64,000 nt of DNA, taken from contig NZ_JH980292.1 in assembly GCF_000314005.1 (NCBI RefSeq), forward strand, positions 4,004,121 through 4,068,120, in the 5' to 3' direction. This document shows, piece by piece, positions 2,881 to 12,423 of this stretch (the first letter of the stretch is position 1; every line of letters starts with the position of its first letter). The notes below the pieces were generated by a model. It worked only from the letters and a program-made list of their open reading frames with translations. It did not search any database and was not told the origin of the DNA. Source of the stretch: Spirulina subsalsa PCC 9445 (GTDB lineage Bacteria > Cyanobacteriota > Cyanobacteriia > Cyanobacteriales > Spirulinaceae). Position numbers and translations under genes: made by a program.

Positions 2881-3171
2881 CTACAAAATGAGCGGTTCAT
2901 CAAAATCGACATAGTGATCCAAACCATAGACCTCCACACAATCACTGCGATCGCCCCGTAAACGATAAACCCTTAAACTGTCGGTTTCTCGCTTGATAAT
3001 TTTGACCAACTTTGCCACAAACGCCTCGTACTGTGCGGCATTCAACCGACACTCAAAAACCGACTTCTGGACACGCTGACCATAATCCTTACAGGTGTTG
3101 GCGACCTGACGGAGCCGACGACGACCCGCCGAAGTTTCTGTATTCACATCATAGGTGACAAGGATATTCAT
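2881..3171 (-). CDS. cas2: CRISPR-associated endoribonuclease Cas2
   Basis: This 96-aa protein has the Cas2 ferredoxin-like start MNILVTYDVNTE with the conserved metal-binding Asp at residue 8, and the length is normal for the family. Cas2 is the dimeric core of the Cas1-Cas2 integrase that inserts new spacers at the leader end. The gene starts 4 bp after cas1 and is the last cas gene before the leader, the normal I-C order. The C-terminal half (residues about 60-96) has the short acidic tail often seen in I-C Cas2. Confidence 0.96.
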   Translation of the reverse strand: MNILVTYDVNTETSAGRRRLRQVANTCKDYGQRVQKSVFECRLNAAQYEAFVAKLVKIIKRETDSLRVYRLRGDRSDCVEVYGLDHYVDFDEPLIL

Positions 3172-3175
3172 ACAC

Positions 3176-4213
3176 TTAACGAGGGATAAAAGGAGGATAG
3201 TGGTCTAAATCGCCTCGGAGGTAACGAGCAAACAAGCGCGCTTGAGTATGAGCGACTAAACCGAGAGGTATTTTGGTTTTGAGCAGAGGATGAGTAATTT
3301 CCTCCTGTTTGCGCTTTTGATAAGCACCCAGCACCGTTTTACGCCCCGACTCCGTGAGATAAATTGCGCCCCCAGGTCGCTCCATAAAATCATCGGGTTG
3401 GATCTGCTGGCGGTTGATTAATGTAAGAACAAGACGATCACACACAATCGGTCGCAACTCCTCCATTAGGTCAAAAGCCAGACTCGCACGACCGGGACGC
3501 AACACATGAAGGAAACCCATTTGGGGGTCAAGACCAACGGATTCACAAGCGGCAATACATTCATTTTTGAGTAGACCGTAAAGGAACGAGAGGAGAGAAT
3601 TGGTCGGGTCAAGGGGAGGATGACGAGAGCGCGTTTTAAACCCAAACGCTTCCCGATTTTGAACAATGGCATGGTCAAACACCTCCAGATAAGCTTTCGC
3701 CGCGTTCCCCTCAATGCCCCGGACAGTCTCTACCGTCGTCGCCGCTTCTAGGCGAGTCAGCGATTCTGCATGATGTTGGGCTGCTTTGGTCAGTGCTGTG
3801 CGATCGCCCTCTTGTTTCGCATCCCGTGCCGAACGCATCAACAGTTTCCGCGCATTTTGGATCTTCCCTGCCACCATATAGCGGGCAATATCCAACGTTT
3901 TAGCCCCGTCATCCACCGCCGCATTTTGAGCGCGACGGAGCAAAACATTTCCCGTCGTCGGCCCCGACAAACGGGCTTTAAACTTGCCATACTCCGACAA
4001 CCAAACAAAATCTCGCCCATCCTGCGCGCAACGGTGGAGCAAAAACGGACTCACAGATACATTGCCAAACACCACTAAACCAGTAAGATGATGCAAAGGG
4101 ATTTGAAAAGGCTTTTGTTCCTCTGCTTTCAGTTTCAAGGTATCTCGTTCAAGATGTAGATAAGCGCCCTGAGTTTGAACGTAGAGAGTATTAAGAATCG
4201 GTTTCATCGCCAA
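3176..4213 (-). CDS. cas1: CRISPR-associated endonuclease/integrase Cas1 (type I-C)
   Basis: This 345-aa protein is full length. The metal-binding residues expected of Cas1 are visible: Glu168 in GIEGNAA, His236 in GFLHVLRPGR and Asp248 in LAFDLMEELRP. With Cas2 it captures and integrates prespacers. The start overlaps the cas4 stop by 23 bp, which implies translational coupling, and cas2 follows after 4 bp. A second in-frame Met at residue 3 is an equally good start. No damage is seen. Confidence 0.97.
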   Translation of the reverse strand: MAMKPILNTLYVQTQGAYLHLERDTLKLKAEEQKPFQIPLHHLTGLVVFGNVSVSPFLLHRCAQDGRDFVWLSEYGKFKARLSGPTTGNVLLRRAQNAAVDDGAKTLDIARYMVAGKIQNARKLLMRSARDAKQEGDRTALTKAAQHHAESLTRLEAATTVETVRGIEGNAAKAYLEVFDHAIVQNREAFGFKTRSRHPPLDPTNSLLSFLYGLLKNECIAACESVGLDPQMGFLHVLRPGRASLAFDLMEELRPIVCDRLVLTLINRQQIQPDDFMERPGGAIYLTESGRKTVLGAYQKRKQEEITHPLLKTKIPLGLVAHTQARLFARYLRGDLDHYPPFIPR

Positions 4214-4814
4214 TTATAAACGGGTTGAACACAGCACGACCCACCAGATCAGGCAGACAAACTCCTTGCAGTGAGCAATCCTCACAGCGTTTATCATGCA
4301 CCGGAGCAGGTATAGTATATTGCTCCAACATTTTCCGGGCTTGTTCCGCAAAAGTCAGCGTTTGTTTTCGCAAAGCTGCCGTCAGTTCCACCTCCTGCCG
4401 TCGTCGGGAAGCATGGTGAAAAATCGCCCCCATCGGAATCTCACAATTGAACATCTCCTCCAAACACATGGCTTGAGCGCAAAGCTGGATACTATTCGCC
4501 AGACGATGACGACGGGGGCCGGATTTGTACTCTACGGGGTAGGGGAGATCATCCTCTCCAAACTCCACCACATCGGCAATTCCCCGCCATTGGTACTGAT
4601 GGGAGCAAAGAGAAAGCGAGCGCTCCACCCGCACCCCATCCACCACCTCACTGGTAGCAGAATCCGCCCGCTCATGAACCCGATGTCCCCGCAACGTATA
4701 AATATTATCCTCAAACGTTTGTTCAACATGAATTAAGGCACATTGACGAGGACAAAAAGCATAATGTTGTAACACACTAATCCACAGATAATCCTCAGTA
4801 TTTCGTTCGCTCAT
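4191..4814 (-). CDS. cas4: CRISPR-associated exonuclease Cas4
   Basis: This is a 207-aa RecB-like nuclease with a Fe-S cluster. The cluster cysteines are Cys21 (FCPRQC) and the C-terminal group RCEDCSLQGVC. The nuclease motif VEYKSG sits mid-protein. In I-C systems Cas4 trims prespacers and helps select those next to a PAM, which agrees with the TTC PAM inferred from this array. It overlaps cas1 and is separated from cas7 by the hicAB pair, whereas in standard I-C loci cas4 directly follows cas7. Confidence 0.95.
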   Translation of the reverse strand: MSERNTEDYLWISVLQHYAFCPRQCALIHVEQTFEDNIYTLRGHRVHERADSATSEVVDGVRVERSLSLCSHQYQWRGIADVVEFGEDDLPYPVEYKSGPRRHRLANSIQLCAQAMCLEEMFNCEIPMGAIFHHASRRRQEVELTAALRKQTLTFAEQARKMLEQYTIPAPVHDKRCEDCSLQGVCLPDLVGRAVFNPFIIGDETDS

Positions 4815-4846
4815 CGCTTAATTTTTAGTAAAATAACCAGAAAATC

Positions 4847-4877
4847 GTAGGTTCGGCACAGGAAGCGTAACCCAACA
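4847..4877 (+). repeat. Small MITE-like repeat (GTAGGTT...AACCCAACA), left of hicAB
   Basis: The sequence begins GTAGGTT and ends GTAACCCAACA. It resembles a common small bacterial palindromic repeat of the form GTAGGTTGGGT...AAACCCAACA. A second copy in the opposite orientation lies at 5533-5565, so the pair encloses hicAB. Confidence 0.5.
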
Positions 4878-5010
4878 AAACCGTAAACAGTAACCAAAAT
4901 ATAAGGGAAGTGTCCGCCCCCTGTGCCATAGACTAATCCCCTCTAGCCCCCCTTTAGAATGGGGGAAAATACAGATCAGAAACTGACGTGAATTTGAGTT
5001 TCTGAAACGT

Positions 5011-5250
5011 TCAGAGTGTAGTTGGAAGTGGGATCTCATCTCCATAGTCCCAAGCCGTCTGAATCCAGGCAACTTTTGCCTCTTGAATATTGACAATAGC
5101 TTCCTCAAGAGTGTCACCTTGGGAAAGACATCCGGGTAAGTCAGCCAGCATCACCGTATAGCCGCCATCAGGTTCAGGATATAGAGTAATCGGATACTTC
5201 AAATTGAGATAGTCTTCCAAAGTTTCAGGTTTAATCTGCGTTTTCATCAT
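5011..5250 (-). CDS. hicB: HicB-family antitoxin
   Basis: This 79-aa protein has the HicB/UPF0150 fold signature YPITLYPEPDGGYTVMLADL followed by PGCLSQGDTLEEAI. HicB binds and neutralises HicA and often represses the operon. This copy is short and I see no separate helix-turn-helix or ribbon-helix-helix at the C-terminus. It overlaps hicA by 20 bp, the usual toxin-first order. The pair sits between cas7 and cas4, an unusual place. Confidence 0.9.
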   Translation of the reverse strand: MMKTQIKPETLEDYLNLKYPITLYPEPDGGYTVMLADLPGCLSQGDTLEEAIVNIQEAKVAWIQTAWDYGDEIPLPTTL

Positions 5251-5488
5251 TCCAGTTCTCCAAATTTAGTAGTTTGACAATTTGTTTCACGTATATGCCT
5301 TTAACCATTTTTCCGCCCTTTTTGGGTATGGTAATTTTCAGCCCGTCTGAGTTACGGAAGGTGTGATGACTTCCCTTAGAGTGTTGTTGTTCAAAGCCAA
5401 AGGATTCTAAAAGATACTGGACATCATTAAATAGAATTTCTGGTGGATCTCTTAAAAATTGCTCAATTAGCTTTTCAAGTTTGCTCAT
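5231..5488 (-). CDS. hicA: HicA-family mRNA interferase toxin
   Basis: This is an 85-aa HicA-like protein. HicA is a double-stranded-RNA-binding-fold RNase that cuts mRNA. The catalytic histidine motif KGSHHTFRN is present (His41/His42) and is followed by the usual basic stretch ITIPKKGGKMVKG. The gene has an unusually perfect Shine-Dalgarno at 5494-5502 and overlaps hicB. Its length is slightly above the family minimum because of a short acidic tail. It appears intact. Confidence 0.9.
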   Translation of the reverse strand: MSKLEKLIEQFLRDPPEILFNDVQYLLESFGFEQQHSKGSHHTFRNSDGLKITIPKKGGKMVKGIYVKQIVKLLNLENWNDENAD

Positions 5489-5493
5489 CAGTA

Positions 5494-5502
5494 ATCACCT
5501 CC
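5494..5502 (-). promoter_or_regulatory. Strong Shine-Dalgarno of hicA
   Basis: GGAGGTGAT on the minus strand is a nine-base match to the anti-Shine-Dalgarno region and ends 5 bp before the hicA ATG at 5488. It fixes the hicA start. Such a strong site is uncommon in this window. Confidence 0.7.
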
Positions 5503-5532
5503 AAACCCGGTTTCTAGATATGAAGCCAGGGA

Positions 5533-5565
5533 TGTTGGGTTTTGCTACCGCTCCACCCAACCTAC
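5533..5565 (-). repeat. Small MITE-like palindromic repeat, right of hicAB
   Basis: Read on the minus strand it begins GTAGGTTGGGTGGAGCGG and ends AAACCCAACA, with a perfect GTTGGGT/ACCCAAC stem. It pairs with the related copy at 4847-4877, in opposite orientation, around hicAB. Next to it is a short tandem repeat (AGATCCCTAC twice, 5566-5590). Confidence 0.6.
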
Positions 5566-5624
5566 AGATCCCTACCTATAGATCCCTACAAATAACCTGC
5601 TTTTGGGGATTTACAACCCACCCA

Positions 5625-6749
5625 TCAAACCAACTCCGTTAATTCCACTCCCTCCGGTAAATCCTCCTTATTGATCACCACTTGATAATCCTTAAACGAC
5701 CGAGGCGCATTACTCCCAGACTCCACCGTAATCCGATCAAATAATTTGTGAGCCGGAGCATTTCCTAACCGCTTTTCATGGGAAAAAATATATAACCCCC
5801 GCAACGCCATCAACCCTCGACTCGCACTCCGATCTAACTCCCACATCCCTTGAATCGCTTGCCAAAATAAAGCTAAATCCTCCTCCGTTACCCCCGTTTG
5901 TTGTGCCAAAAATGGCGAGAAAAACCCAAAACCACGATACAAACCATAGGGAATCTGGGTTTTCCGTCCCATTGTTTGTAAATTGACCCGATCCTCCTTC
6001 GCCTCCGTAACAGCCATGCGGGTAATCGACCAATCCAACGGCAAAACCGGATCAATAGAACGAGCAAATGTTAACTGGACTGGCCCCCGCACCTGACCCG
6101 CATTTAATCCTGTACTCATGACTGCCCCAAACATTCGCACATCATAAAAATTGGCACACATCCACTGTTTCGCTGTCTCAATATTCTGACCTGTTTTAGC
6201 AGGCTTACCTGATTTTTTGACTAACCCCTCAACAAATTTTTTCGCTACTTTCCAATCGCTGAACTCTTCCAATTGCTTATACTCTTCCTTTAATTCCTCA
6301 GCCGAAAGTTCCCCACTATAAGTCAACGTCGAAACAACATTATCCCCCTCTTCTTCATCTTCAATGGCAAAAGCCGAAGGTAATTCATCGGCTAAATTCC
6401 GCAAAGCAGTTAGGACTTTTTCCTCCTTAATCACATCAGAAACTGGTTCACTGACAGGCAACCCTGAACCCACATAAGCCCGACGAATTTGCTCATTGAG
6501 AACCCCGTGATGTTCCACAAAAATTTTCAGCCGTTCTTTCTCCGCTTCCGTCGCTTCATACTCGCTGTAAACCTCAACATAATTCCGCACTTTTCGCTTT
6601 AAACAAACATCCGTCACTAAACCCTGCATGGTTTCCGCATCAGTCCGAGGTAAATTTCCCCCATCTGGATCTCCGTTAGGGTTGCCGTCCAACACATCAA
6701 AAAGCAGGACAAAATCATGACGGCGGTTGGGATCGGTATGAATAGACAT
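5625..6749 (-). CDS. cas7: Type I-C Cascade backbone protein Cas7 (Csd2)
   Basis: This is a 374-aa Csd2-type Cas7. It opens with the family signature RRHDFVLLFDVLDGNPNGDP and NLPRTDAE and ends with the GLYIFSHEKRLGNAPAHKLFD region. Cas7 coats the crRNA spacer in several copies. I-C Cas7 proteins are usually nearer 290 aa. The extra length is in an acidic, helical-looking segment at about residues 100-185. It is 186 bp from cas8c, unlike the tight spacing upstream, and hicA follows 136 bp downstream. Confidence 0.94.
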   Translation of the reverse strand: MSIHTDPNRRHDFVLLFDVLDGNPNGDPDGGNLPRTDAETMQGLVTDVCLKRKVRNYVEVYSEYEATEAEKERLKIFVEHHGVLNEQIRRAYVGSGLPVSEPVSDVIKEEKVLTALRNLADELPSAFAIEDEEEGDNVVSTLTYSGELSAEELKEEYKQLEEFSDWKVAKKFVEGLVKKSGKPAKTGQNIETAKQWMCANFYDVRMFGAVMSTGLNAGQVRGPVQLTFARSIDPVLPLDWSITRMAVTEAKEDRVNLQTMGRKTQIPYGLYRGFGFFSPFLAQQTGVTEEDLALFWQAIQGMWELDRSASRGLMALRGLYIFSHEKRLGNAPAHKLFDRITVESGSNAPRSFKDYQVVINKEDLPEGVELTELV

Positions 6750-6935: not shown

Positions 6936-8702
6936 TTAGCCATCTTTCTTGTTTTTTTGCCTCTTCGCTTGCCCATTATTATGGGCGCGTTGATGGTAGT
7001 AACCGAGAGCAAAAATACTTTGTTGCTGCATGGTGAAGTTATGGGGAAAATGCCCCTGATCCGGTTGGATATGACTATAAATTTCCTCCAGTTCCAGTTG
7101 TAAATTGTGGTGAGCGCCGGGATTATTTTTCCGAATTTTGCTCAGGTGAGCCTGTGCGCCTTGGATTAACACCCCCATAACCTTCCCCGGCGTGGTAGAC
7201 ATTGCCCCGTAGTAACGATCTACAAGGGTGGCGTTGATTTCTTTACCCAAGGCGGTGCGCTGGATTTGTTCCAGTTGTGCCAGTAGACGGCCGCAGTGAT
7301 AGGCGGTGAGGTCAGCCCCTTCTAGGGGAGGCTGTAAATTTAATTGGCTCATGGATTCTGTTTCACTCATCGGGATGATGTCCTTAAACGTAAGGTAAAG
7401 CTTGATTAACGCGGCGCGGGGATGGGTCATTTTGTTGTCACTATCGACCCGAATTCGGCGCACAACGCTGGCTAGGAGGTCATCAGGCAGGGGTTTTCCC
7501 TGCAAGGCGGCGAAAAACAAGGCGGTGGGCATTCGGGGCAACATTTCCTTGCTCACATCCCGATAGGCACAGGCGGCTAAGGCATAGAGGCCAAAGAGTT
7601 TGGGATCTTCCCCGGTAGGACTCACCACCTGTTGCGCCCGAAACCACTGGCCGAGGTTTTGCCGTACTTCGGCCAGGGTGATATTGAGCCAACTCCGGAC
7701 GACGGTGCGGGCATTGTTGGCTGTCAGGGCTACGGCATAAAAGCGGTCTTGTTCCAGTTGCTCTAAGGCGGTGACATTGGGCTGTTTTTTTAGCCCAGCG
7801 ATGAGGTCTTTGACTTGGGCTTGGGCTTGTTCATCACTGGGTTTATCTAAGAAGCTAAAGAGATCAAATCCTGTGGCTTCTTTGGTCCACCAGGCATAAA
7901 CGGCTTTATCGCTGATGCGGAGGTGGGAATCTCGTTCTTTGAGCAGGTGATTGAGGGCTTTGGCGAAAGCTTCCCCTGCATCGCGGGAAATGGGGGAGGT
8001 GAGGGAGTTGGCGAGGCCGTAGGATTCAAAGGCTTTGGAGTTGGCGGAAACTAAGGCGGTGCCGGATGCTTGACCGCCGGGAACCCCTTTAATGGTGAAG
8101 GGGAGCCGTTGCTCAACAGGGCCATAGTTGCCGGAGACTAAACACCAGCCGAGATTTTCCCCTTTGTCTGTTCCCCCGGTATAGTTGGCCCAAAATTGTT
8201 GGATGCTGGTTAATTGGGCTTTGTCTTCGGCGGGGATAACGGGGCCGCTGGGGGTCATGACTTGAAAGGTGATGACCATGCTGGGGTCGAAGTCGGGGGG
8301 GAGAAGGTGGCGATTGCGGTCTGGCTCCCACTGGTCCAGAAACTGAACAATGGCCTTGACTATAGGCTCTTGGGTCACTTCGGCACAGTGACGGGCGAGG
8401 TCTTTAAATTGTTGATGACAGTCGGCAATGCGGTTCGGTTTTGATTTGGGTTTGGGGATGCCGAGAACATATTCCCCCGTATCGGCGAGGAGTTTGGGAC
8501 TAATGCCGGAACTGCGATTAATATGGGGCAGGATTTTCGGCTCTCCCCGTTTGTTTTTTTTATCCCCGAGGGGGGTGAGTAGATCACCCCGGAGTTGACC
8601 ATCGAGGGTGAGACTAATCACCCAACGGACTGGAGAGGGGCCATACATGGCGGGGGTGGGGTTGATGCGCTGGGCATAGTCAGCGAGGGCTTTAAGGAGC
8701 AT
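6936..8702 (-). CDS. cas8c: Type I-C Cascade large subunit Cas8c (Csd1)
   Basis: This 588-aa protein is typical in length and N-terminus (MLLKALADYAQR...PVRWVISLTLDG) for Csd1/Cas8c. The large subunit recognises the PAM and, through an internal start, yields the small subunit Cas11c in other I-C systems; a Met-rich region around residues 450-480 could supply one here, but I cannot prove it. It follows cas5 by 3 bp, so the two are surely co-translated. The C-terminus is highly basic (KRQKNKK). Confidence 0.95.
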   Translation of the reverse strand: MLLKALADYAQRINPTPAMYGPSPVRWVISLTLDGQLRGDLLTPLGDKKNKRGEPKILPHINRSSGISPKLLADTGEYVLGIPKPKSKPNRIADCHQQFKDLARHCAEVTQEPIVKAIVQFLDQWEPDRNRHLLPPDFDPSMVITFQVMTPSGPVIPAEDKAQLTSIQQFWANYTGGTDKGENLGWCLVSGNYGPVEQRLPFTIKGVPGGQASGTALVSANSKAFESYGLANSLTSPISRDAGEAFAKALNHLLKERDSHLRISDKAVYAWWTKEATGFDLFSFLDKPSDEQAQAQVKDLIAGLKKQPNVTALEQLEQDRFYAVALTANNARTVVRSWLNITLAEVRQNLGQWFRAQQVVSPTGEDPKLFGLYALAACAYRDVSKEMLPRMPTALFFAALQGKPLPDDLLASVVRRIRVDSDNKMTHPRAALIKLYLTFKDIIPMSETESMSQLNLQPPLEGADLTAYHCGRLLAQLEQIQRTALGKEINATLVDRYYGAMSTTPGKVMGVLIQGAQAHLSKIRKNNPGAHHNLQLELEEIYSHIQPDQGHFPHNFTMQQQSIFALGYYHQRAHNNGQAKRQKNKKDG

Positions 8703-8705
8703 AAT

Positions 8706-9428
8706 TTAAAGGGGTTGAGGGGGGATGGTGAGGATGCCTTGTTCAAGACGGGCGGCAAAGAAGCGGGGGCGGGCATTCCCGGAGATGATGCGACGACCTT
8801 GGGCATCTTGTTGGCGGTATTGAATGAAGCCTTTGGGGGCGGGTTGAAATTCAAGGTCATAGAGCATTAGGCCGAGTTCGTCGGTGCGGTCAATGGCTTG
8901 TTCTTGCCCGGTGGGGGGTTCAAAGAAGGCGCTAAATTCCCGGGTGCCGAAGTAGGGCTGATGGTGGCATTGACCGCGCTGCACTCGACGACGGAATTGG
9001 TCGCGGTATTTGGCAATATTGGCGGTGGCATGGGGTTTAAGGTTAATCTGGGCTTCGATGAGGTAGGCGACATTGCGCAGGCCGAGGGTATGGCGTTGAG
9101 CGCGATCGCCATCGGCAAAATACCCCCCGACTCCTGTTTTCGCCCAACTCTTGGCACTACTTTCACTCTGGCAGTTATTCACTTCATTACGCCAGATGGA
9201 GAAGTGTTGAATGGGGTTGAGGACATGGATTTTTTCGATGCGATAGCTCATTTCCGGTTTCCAGAAAATGGCTTCGAGAATCCCCCGTGCTGCGCTGGGG
9301 GTGATCACGTCGTAACTAATGCGCTCTACTTTAAATTCCGGTCGGGTAAAGCAGGCAAAGTCGCCGTAGACTTTTAGGGCTAAGGGGGGGGAATTGCTCA
9401 CAGTGCTAATCCTTAACGAATGGGACAA
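8706..9428 (-). CDS. cas5: Type I-C crRNA endonuclease/Cascade subunit Cas5c
   Basis: This is a 240-aa Cas5d/Cas5c family protein. The RAMP segment PSAARGILEAIFWKP and the motif FQPAPKGFIQYRQQDAQG are characteristic. In I-C systems, which lack Cas6, Cas5 cuts the pre-crRNA and stays on the 5' handle. It is encoded 3 bp before cas8c. It begins a second cas transcription block, because 332 bp separate it from cas3. Confidence 0.95.
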   Translation of the reverse strand: MSHSLRISTVSNSPPLALKVYGDFACFTRPEFKVERISYDVITPSAARGILEAIFWKPEMSYRIEKIHVLNPIQHFSIWRNEVNNCQSESSAKSWAKTGVGGYFADGDRAQRHTLGLRNVAYLIEAQINLKPHATANIAKYRDQFRRRVQRGQCHHQPYFGTREFSAFFEPPTGQEQAIDRTDELGLMLYDLEFQPAPKGFIQYRQQDAQGRRIISGNARPRFFAARLEQGILTIPPQPL

Positions 9429-9760: not shown

Positions 9761-11992
9761 CTAAATAATCAAATCAAAGGGATCACGCTGGATGGGTTCA
9801 CCTTGCCATTGAATCCCCACTAACTCATCATAGCCCCCTGTCCATTCCCACAGACCGGGAACCACTTCTTGGCGATTCTCTGGGTTTTGATTGAACTGCC
9901 AAGGGAATAGATTGACTAAATAAGCTTGTAAACGACGGCGAGTTTCTCGCCCCACCCGACCCTGAGAACGAATCTGAGCGAGAATTTGCCCACTTTCGCC
10001 ATAATTGACTACCACCGGGATTGTCTCATCTTCAATCAGGGAAAACTTGGCCACCTCTGGATAATTGAGCTTTTTCCGTTCCCCTTGAATCTCTTGGCCC
10101 CTGGAGAAATCCACCTGTTGATAGAGTTCTTGGAAATAGCGCAGAAAGAGGTCTGGGGTATGGAGGGCATCCATTTCCCCCGGACTGAGGTAGTTTTTCG
10201 CTACAGCGTAGGCCGTTTGATAGAGTCCCCGAGGACTGCCCCCCTCTTGGGGTTCAAACAAGATCACCTGACCTTGAGCGCGCTTTCCTTCTCGATTACA
10301 CCGCCCGGCCGCTTGTACAATACGGTCTAAGGGTGCGATCGCCCGATACACCACCGGAAAATCCAAATCCACCCCCGCCTCCACCACCTGAGTAGACACC
10401 ACCCAACAGGGCAACCTCTCCTTCAAACGTCCTTTCACCGCCTCCAGCACCCGCCGACGATGAGTGCCACAGAGCAACGTCGAGAGATGAAACACCCCCT
10501 CACGGGGGAACTCCGCCCCTTGTAGGGCTGCCAACACCCCCAACGCATCCTTGCGCGTATTAACAATGATTAAAGCCTGTTCCGCCGACCGTGCTTGTAA
10601 ATCTGCCATTAAATCCGACCAAGACCAAGCCCCCGACGGTCGGATATAGCTCACCCGTTTTAAGCGCTGGAAGTGCCTCTGAGCCTCAGCAGGCGGCACG
10701 ATATCCGTGATTTGGTCGAATCCTCGTAAATAGGGGTTAGTCCCCTCAAAGGCGGGCTGAGTGGCCGTACAGAGAACCAGCGTCACCCCGTAATACTTCA
10801 CCAATTGCCCCAACACGTCCAAAATCGGCTCTAAGAGAGGAATGGGCAAGGTTTGCACCTCATCCAAAACAATCACACTGTTCACCAGATTATGCAGTTT
10901 CCGACAGGGCATGGGGCGATGAGCAAACAGACTATTAAACAACTGAACCGTTGTCGTGACAATTAAAGGGGCATCCCAATTTTGCGCCACCAGACGAGCT
11001 TGAGCATAGCCCCAACGGGCATCGTCATCCCGCCAAGTCTCCTTTAATCCTTCCGGGGAAATCGCGCTGTGATGCTCTAAAACCGCCATTTCTCCCAAGG
11101 GGGCGAAAATCTTCCGATAGACTTGGACTGTCTGTTCAATAATGCTGGTGTAGGGTACCGCAAAAATCACCCGACGCTGACCCTGACCGCAAGCATGATT
11201 TAAGGCAAAGGCCAAACCACTACGGGTTTTTCCCCCTCCCGTCGGCACACAGAGCCGAAAAACTCCCGGTTTTTGTGAGGCCTGAGCGCAACAATACTCA
11301 TAAACCTCCCGCCGGACTTGATTCACTGGAGTATCTGGCACTTTTTCCAGCAAGGCCGCCTGTTCACGGGCTAACTGGGCTTGGAGTTGGGGCAGGGTGA
11401 GGGGAATTTCCCGTTGTGCCGTCTGTTCTGGGTTAAAATGTCCTTCGGTGTCCAGATGATCCCCATCAATCAAGCAGGAAAAGAGCAAGCGCAGGAACAA
11501 TTCAGCCCGCAAGGGATCCCGTTGATGGGCGGCCATCTCTTGAGCGAGAGTCGGAGGGGCGGTTAGGTCAATCCCTGCCGCTTCTGCCCGTTTTAACACC
11601 TCTTGATAATCCGTCGCGGTGCGCTCAGGATTGCACCCTTGGAGTTTAACGTTAAGTGAAGACAAAGCCGGTAGGCCGCCATGATGCCCATAAATCAGGG
11701 GGGCGAGGGGTGCAAACTGTTGGGCGGCTAACTTTGCCCCATGAATTGCATGGGGAACTGACTTGGGTTTATCTCCCCGATGGCATCCTTGCAAATAGGC
11801 TTGAAAGTCGGGGTTATATTTGCCTAAATCATGCCACAATCCTAAATAATGCCCGACCGTGGGAGCGCCCAAAAGGGTGGCAAAGTCTGCCGTGCGTTTG
11901 GCCACTTTAACCAGATGGGCTTTTAAATCGTGCCACTGTTGGGGACGGTTGGGGGAGGGGGTATGGGCGACGGGATGGGATGGGGTGGTCAT
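9761..11992 (-). CDS. cas3: CRISPR-associated nuclease-helicase Cas3 (HD + SF2)
   Basis: This 743-aa protein degrades the target strand after Cascade binding. The N-terminal HD nuclease shows LWHDLGK (His54, Asp55), HAIHG and YGHHGG. The helicase has Walker A PTGGGKT (250-256) and the DEVQ box (377-380), then motif VI near IVQAAGRCNREGK. I chose the ATG at 11992 (MTTPSHPV) over an in-frame ATG 46 codons upstream, because that extension would overlap the preceding transporter gene and lacks family likeness. The chosen ATG overlaps that gene's stop as TAATG. Confidence 0.96.
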   Translation of the reverse strand: MTTPSHPVAHTPSPNRPQQWHDLKAHLVKVAKRTADFATLLGAPTVGHYLGLWHDLGKYNPDFQAYLQGCHRGDKPKSVPHAIHGAKLAAQQFAPLAPLIYGHHGGLPALSSLNVKLQGCNPERTATDYQEVLKRAEAAGIDLTAPPTLAQEMAAHQRDPLRAELFLRLLFSCLIDGDHLDTEGHFNPEQTAQREIPLTLPQLQAQLAREQAALLEKVPDTPVNQVRREVYEYCCAQASQKPGVFRLCVPTGGGKTRSGLAFALNHACGQGQRRVIFAVPYTSIIEQTVQVYRKIFAPLGEMAVLEHHSAISPEGLKETWRDDDARWGYAQARLVAQNWDAPLIVTTTVQLFNSLFAHRPMPCRKLHNLVNSVIVLDEVQTLPIPLLEPILDVLGQLVKYYGVTLVLCTATQPAFEGTNPYLRGFDQITDIVPPAEAQRHFQRLKRVSYIRPSGAWSWSDLMADLQARSAEQALIIVNTRKDALGVLAALQGAEFPREGVFHLSTLLCGTHRRRVLEAVKGRLKERLPCWVVSTQVVEAGVDLDFPVVYRAIAPLDRIVQAAGRCNREGKRAQGQVILFEPQEGGSPRGLYQTAYAVAKNYLSPGEMDALHTPDLFLRYFQELYQQVDFSRGQEIQGERKKLNYPEVAKFSLIEDETIPVVVNYGESGQILAQIRSQGRVGRETRRRLQAYLVNLFPWQFNQNPENRQEVVPGLWEWTGGYDELVGIQWQGEPIQRDPFDLII

Positions 11993-12423
11993 TAAGGGTT
12001 GCCCTGTTTCAAATACCAACGACAGGCCAGAGAACCCCCAATCAAAGCCCCCAGAAAGATCACCGGATTGGGAATCCCCAACACTAGCGCCACAATACCG
12101 GGGCCGGGACAATACCCGGCAATGCCCCAACCTATGCCAAAAATCGCTGCCCCAACCAGCAAGCGCCCGTCAATATCGCGCCGCGTGGGGAGTTCAAAGC
12201 GTTCTGTTAATAGGGGATGAGGACGAGGCAAAATAAAGCGAAAGGTAATGAGGGTTACGCCCACTGCACCGCCCAAAACAAAGACTAGGGTAGGGTCCCA
12301 GTCCCCCAAAAAGTCTAAAAAGCCTAAAACGCGATCGCGGTCAACCATTTGGGATAACCCCAGCCCAAAACCAAACAAAATCCCCGATAGAACAACAATG
12401 ACATTCTGTAGATTCTCTTTCAT
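11992..12423 (-). CDS. YeeE/YedE half-transporter, second half (CPGPG motif)
   Basis: This is a 143-aa membrane protein with about four hydrophobic segments and the YeeE/YedE (DUF395) motif GIAGYCPGPGIV, in which the cysteine is thought to relay thiosulfate or persulfide. Its ATG overlaps the stop of the upstream half as ATGA, and its stop overlaps the cas3 start as TAATG. The two halves together equal one full-length TsuA/YeeE. The nearest family relative is the PmpA/PmpB type. The actual substrate here is inferred. Confidence 0.8.
   Translation of the reverse strand: MKENLQNVIVVLSGILFGFGLGLSQMVDRDRVLGFLDFLGDWDPTLVFVLGGAVGVTLITFRFILPRPHPLLTERFELPTRRDIDGRLLVGAAIFGIGWGIAGYCPGPGIVALVLGIPNPVIFLGALIGGSLACRWYLKQGNP

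Follow-up and report, generated by a model that had tools for sequence, protein, structure and literature searches.

A HicAB toxin-antitoxin pair at the cas7-cas4 junction of a type I-C CRISPR-Cas operon in Spirulina

Why does a toxin-antitoxin (TA) pair lie inside a CRISPR-Cas operon, and how did it come to be there? The question is raised by the first 12 kb of the Spirulina subsalsa window (the whole stretch of DNA analysed, 64,000 nucleotides at G000:C2:4004121-4068120), which carries all seven cas genes on the minus strand in the order cas3-cas5c-cas8c-cas7c-[hicAB]-cas4-cas1c-cas2, a gene set that together with its array places the system in type I-C. The first-pass annotation had located hicA and hicB between cas7 and cas4 on the operon strand, and profile matches and coordinates bear this out:

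21-2712, strand not given: CRISPR array, 38 exact 37-nt repeats and 37 spacers; may extend beyond the window edge
2881-3171, minus: cas2 (PF09827, 86.7 bits)
3176-4213, minus: cas1c (TIGR03640, 495 bits)
4191-4814, minus: cas4 (TIGR00372, 130.8 bits)
5011-5250, minus: hicB, short HicB-like antitoxin, 79 aa (PF15919, 51.9 bits; cut-off 27)
5231-5488, minus: hicA, HicA-family toxin, 85 aa (PF07927, 44.5 bits; cut-off 27)
5625-6749, minus: cas7c (csd2; TIGR02589, 331.7 bits)
6936-8702, minus: cas8c (csd1; TIGR01863, 375.1 bits)
8706-9428, minus: cas5c (TIGR01876, 146.6 bits)
9761-12130, minus: cas3 (PDLC01765 Cas3c, 647.6 bits); open reading frame (ORF) drawn from the earliest candidate start; the gene itself may begin further in

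Judged by sequence, hicAB is an ordinary type II toxin-antitoxin pair, with toxicity and neutralisation predicted from family: both products exceed the cut-offs of their family profiles, and the two genes overlap by 20 bp on one strand. HicA, whose translation contains a GSHH stretch, is by its family presumably an mRNA interferase and would cleave mRNA, while HicB, which we take on family knowledge to bind HicA, would block it. Compared with solved structures, HicB matched a HicB (PDB 6u0i, E 7.3e-10) and HicA had a weak best match (1whz, E 0.0015); the source genome holds seven HicA-family matches. The pair resembles HicAB type II systems (PF07927/PF15919) in its small, overlapping genes, toxin-antitoxin order and two above-cut-off families, and differs from the usual ones in lying within a type I-C cas operon and in the short form of its HicB. 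The 79 aa of this HicB compare with 73–87 aa in many relatives and 122–133 aa in others, and the C-terminal extension of the latter, which by eye we read as a ribbon-helix-helix, is absent; a HicB of this form may perhaps be incapable of repressing its own promoter. A sigma-70 consensus scan, a weak test in cyanobacteria, returned no promoter-like sites in 4700-5750 (shuffle mean, 1.7). The short HicB and the lack of such a site make it probable that hicAB is transcribed as part of the cas message, with the interference genes on one side and cas4-cas1-cas2 on the other. One further signal lies between hicB and cas4, where three overlapping matches (shuffle mean, 0.9) mark a hairpin that could lower cas4-cas1-cas2 expression in the source strain:

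4903-4922, minus: terminator-like hairpin

The age of the arrangement was approached through related operons, using a Cas8c search of 59 genomes (the window's own included) in which six were positive. In Spirulina subsalsa FACHB-351 (G001; contig region L046), whose Cas7 is 95% identical to that of the window, blastn and a junction alignment found no hicAB in the cas7-cas4 gap. The window aligns to FACHB-351 up to 4818 on one side and from 5511 onward on the other, leaving:

4819-5510, no strand: presence/absence segment, 692 bp, facing 18 bp in FACHB-351

The breakpoint sequences differ between the two genomes, and the FACHB-351 draft (280 contigs) contains no HicA ortholog elsewhere (best match, 31% identity). 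Nor is hicAB present at cas7-cas4 in the more distant G011, G008 and G031, and in G042 the gap holds an apparent Uma2 gene instead. The first-pass annotation had regarded a 719-bp segment as mobile and had pointed to relatives and empty sites as the check; hicAB is indeed a segment that is present or absent at this junction, and the part of the claim that made palindromes the mobile ends does not survive, as set out below. Under gain or deletion alike, hicAB appears young at the cas7-cas4 site.

The pair is indeed flanked by two palindromes in opposite orientations, as had been described:

4847-4877, plus: left palindrome, a REP of another sequence variant (GTAGGTTCGGCACAGGAAGC...); RNA hairpin weaker (z -1.40)
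5533-5565, minus: right palindrome, a GTAG-type REP fitting the strict consensus; RNA hairpin -13.8 kcal/mol (z -2.64)

The palindromes exceed chance in one sense, as members of a real repeat family. A strict pattern (GTAGGTTGGGT-N6..20-AACCCAACA) occurs in 97 copies in the source genome against none for the reversed pattern used as control, and a loose pattern in 123 copies against one. Of the eight genomes in this search, the sister FACHB-351 has 283 loose copies, two further members of the family have 57 and 43, and the last four have 0–3. The left palindrome has near-identical copies at G000:C2:393293 and C2:1280226, and besides the hicAB site there are four clusters in which strict copies of both orientations fall inside 1 kb. 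Since the family is so abundant in this genome, palindromes on two sides of a gene are weak evidence; palindromes around a cyanobacterial gene may be REP elements, and as such are a poor guide to a mobile unit. The whole cas7-hicA leader was unremarkable as an RNA structure (z -1.02).

Of the five Y1-transposase matches in the source genome, one lies inside a cluster of 11 REP copies and belongs with the REP-associated tyrosine transposases (NF047646, 210.4 bits; cut-off 80); the other four have no loose REP copies within 1.5 kb on either side. The clustered locus is a likely source of REPs in this genome:

L196 1474-2016 (G000:C2, about 4218.2 kb), strand not given: REP-associated tyrosine transposase amid 11 GTAG palindromes

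Seven of these 11 palindromes form a tandem series with a spacing of 57–58 bp. PMC3733652 describes GTAG-tagged REPs, reported from cyanobacteria among others, whose transposase is flanked by copies. Both features are found here, namely short high-copy palindromes beginning GTAG and a tyrosine transposase amid the copies; unlike the families described there, the Spirulina sequence family is not assigned to a named GTAG family, and the words Spirulina and Arthrospira are absent from the main text of that paper.

Relatives of the pair were common in the phylum, with HicA matches (E ≤ 0.001, many of them weak) in 99 of 386 cyanobacterial genomes, the window's own included, and 23 loci besides the window reaching 49% HicA identity. 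A hicB match adjoins hicA in all 29 non-window loci among the 30 listed, and matches to the window's Cas proteins were found in none of the 29 within about 1.5 kb on either side. Four further loci from the same family gave a similar picture, with hicB at three (the exception being the FACHB-351 locus, at 30% identity) and cas matches at none, so that in 0 of 33 hicA loci could a cas gene be detected over a distance of about 1.5 kb. HicAB relatives are thus widespread in cyanobacteria and, in the loci read, away from cas genes. The nearest relative (L054; HicA 76%, HicB 87% identity) is similar in DNA to the window only over 5019-5502, that is, the genes and a few bases upstream. The hicA of L054 has in-frame stops while its HicB is still 87% identical to that of the window, making this HicB a possible orphan antitoxin. 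At L063 (G280:C1:3618567-3618806) hicA and hicB are apparently one open frame of about 204–212 aa, a possible toxin-antitoxin fusion.

The HicAB pair being ordinary, the interest of the locus may lie in the insertion site, and the cas7-cas4 junction was compared with the other junctions of type I-C operons. The best 80 of 249 relatives from a Cas7-alignment scan were taken, chosen by Cas7 similarity and not by cargo; cas7 and cas4 were both detected in 75 of the 80 loci, and the five lacking one were left out. Wide gaps (≥250 bp, corrected by profile boundaries) occurred at cas7-cas4 in 20 of 75 loci, compared with 0/71 at cas5-cas8, 1/77 at cas8-cas7 (locus L096), 2/68 at cas4-cas1 and 0/64 at cas1-cas2. 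Wide gaps are thus much more frequent at the boundary between interference and adaptation genes than at the four other junctions of these operons (20/75 vs 3/280; Fisher p = 3.5e-12, a test that ignores kinship and draws on the same loci on both sides). Cyanobacteria contributed 8 wide gaps in 13 loci and the other loci 12 in 62. At L126 a long ORF matching cas1 overlaps the gap and puts it in doubt; leaving this locus out brings the count to 19. No hicAB was detected in any of the 80 other I-C loci (phmmer, E 1e-5, ORFs of at least 40 aa).

A second, cyanobacterial survey drew on 31 of 388 genomes, with 30 loci read and cas4 in reach in 14; a gap of at least 200 bp was present in 8 of the 14, the window itself included. 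These loci were not added to the count because five of the seven others share, by eye, a cargo protein with the first set; the survey did supply two new cargo loci (L167 and L187). The hotspot failed to replicate in plasmid operons, where 20 of 55 Cas7c-matching records were sampled and the 13 with cas7 and cas4 annotated (seven did not show both, the gene table being incomplete) had no insertion at cas7-cas4 and gaps of -14 to 150 bp. Titles and abstract openings in the literature name no case of TA genes at cas7-cas4, which is weak evidence of absence. The cargo of the wide gaps was as follows, at cas7-cas4 unless stated:

L099, against the operon strand: YefM/YoeB, next to a gene that resembles that of L107 and is present twice, once in part
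L161, against the operon strand: ParE and an Unstab_antitox partner
L151: Unstab_antitox gene, then a 97-aa ORF that matches nothing in Pfam, even at E 1
L124: NTase_sub_bind and a nucleotidyltransferase, which we take to be HEPN/MNT-like
L102: DUF433 with DUF5615, plus DUF29
L103: Unstab_antitox, alone
L106: DUF433, alone
L088, L089, L091, L097: Uma2 genes (Pfam)
L095, L123: Uma2 genes (by likeness to the Pfam-matched Uma2 loci)
L167 (second survey): Uma2 gene (Pfam)
L107: gene with a sub-threshold 23S_rRNA_IVP match
L090, 6230-6559: coiled-coil ORF
L187 (second survey), 2198-2494: coiled-coil ORF
L152 (Armatimonadota MAG), 6059-6241, on the other strand from the operon when the repeat is oriented as in the window: CRISPR of three repeats and two spacers
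L126: ORF without a Pfam match
L116, L144, L146: wide gaps with no gene named
L157, 6642-7046: DUF559 gene at cas4-cas1
L159, 6609-7439: Bro-N gene at cas4-cas1

Putative TA pairs account for 5 of the 20 wide gaps and are of at least four kinds, a raw share that is uncorrected for the rate at which TA pairs enter other operons. In L151, we take the 97-aa ORF, by eye, for a ParE-like toxin.

The explanation that we consider probable is that a common cyanobacterial HicAB pair occupies the cas7-cas4 gap, a gap tolerant of such cargo. The pair would have reached the gap by horizontal transfer, and it is most likely maintained as a selfish TA module or one of slight benefit; on the safest reading, the interference block ends in a gap, ahead of a separable adaptation block, where insertions are tolerated, and TA pairs, being small and self-retaining, would be common among the arrivals. 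The terminator-like hairpin between hicB and cas4 and the 13 plasmid operons free of insertions count against this explanation. A variant compatible with this explanation makes hicAB ancestral to both Spirulina, a deletion in FACHB-351 having taken the pair and most of the left REP. We regard this variant as possible though somewhat unlikely: AACCTACG, the closing stretch of the left REP here, recurs in the 18-bp filler of FACHB-351 and so leaves room for a deletion, as does the comparison with one other Spirulina genome, but G011, G008 and G031 also lack hicAB, so that even this variant amounts to a gain, merely a slightly older one. Very unlikely, on the other hand, is the first-pass proposal that a MITE-like or composite element with the palindromes as its ends moved the 719-bp segment as a unit. 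Two opposed palindromes do flank the pair, but the right REP is in the same place in FACHB-351 despite the absence of hicAB there, which puts the breakpoint 22 bp inside the right REP (5511 vs 5533), and the right REP is not the end of a hicAB unit. The two palindromes are, moreover, different variants of a high-copy family (more than 100 copies) with its own transposase, by which they presumably spread, and a loose REP copy lies within 1.5 kb of only 1 of 29 other hicA loci. Palindromes as MITE ends were accordingly rejected on the hicAB-free sister site and the copy number of the repeat.

A role linked to CRISPR has to be weighed against the tolerant gap as well. The first-pass annotation had suggested that the pair guards the operon or serves as its back-up. 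In its protein-only form, operon damage would silence HicB, which is labile, together with HicA, and the stable HicA would then hit the cell, an addiction that works through co-transcription. In favour of such a guard are the same-strand position inside the operon, the short HicB, the empty sigma-70 scan (within the limits of that test in cyanobacteria) and, at cas7-cas4 in other bacteria, a further five TA or putative TA pairs. Yet the sister and more distant relatives retain the operon without hicAB, relatives of the pair sit apart from cas genes, none of the 80 other I-C loci (the best 80 of 249) has hicAB, and the L099 and L161 pairs are oriented against their operons, all of which makes a guard improbable. 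Several unrelated TA families at one junction could reflect selection for linked function rather than tolerance. Stated broadly, the cas7-cas4 boundary would be a docking site at which unrelated pairs (HicAB here; YefM/YoeB, ParE-type, HEPN/MNT-like and DUF433/DUF5615 elsewhere), read from the cas transcript, are recruited repeatedly as protein-only guards against the loss or silencing of interference genes; this, too, we think unlikely. If selection and not tolerance is at work, addiction modules made of protein alone exist in CRISPR operons alongside the RNA-guided ones of the CreTA kind.

An RNA-guided arrangement, in which Cascade and a crRNA-like guide silence hicA and a block of Cascade releases it, is very unlikely, with the location in the cas operon and nothing else in its favour. 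PMC12737573 describes the RNA-guided CreTA and CrePA as using a crRNA-like antitoxin. As in those systems, the toxin gene sits among cas genes; unlike them, hicAB shows no crRNA-like guide or degenerate repeat, its antitoxin is a protein, and its toxin is HicA rather than an RNA or a KilA-N protein. The best array-repeat-like match in the junction was 18/37, within the control range (16–21, with 18 the commonest, in 200 draws of 810 bp), in a test that could miss a strongly degenerate guide. Array spacers matched the junction at 57% at best and gave a single 8-nt seed match, where controls average 1.14, so that neither a CreA/CreR-like guide in the junction nor spacers aimed at it rose above chance, and HicA already has a protein antitoxin. 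No crRNA-like antitoxin with CRISPR-repeat-like sequence was found near the toxin, which speaks against placing hicAB with CreTA/CrePA. Because no crRNA-like guide or spacer match ties hicAB to Cascade, the CRISPR guard is unproved; the searches for repeat-like sequence, spacer matches and cas genes near relatives gave no positive evidence for a guard or back-up, and the sister operon lives without the pair.

The Uma2 cases all come from cyanobacteria, and some of them resemble one another; by eye they comprise at least two subfamilies, and therefore probably more than one arrival. The small coiled-coil ORFs of L090 and L187, for which no informative family match was found, are alike, with a hydrophobic C-terminal stretch, and both occur at the same junction in cyanobacteria. 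In L152 the last repeat of the small CRISPR is degenerate; a displaced array is one possible identity of this element, a CreR/CreA-like guide another. In L099 (3818-5160), YefM/YoeB has copies of a single gene on both sides, one partial and one fuller, as though that gene had been duplicated when the pair arrived.
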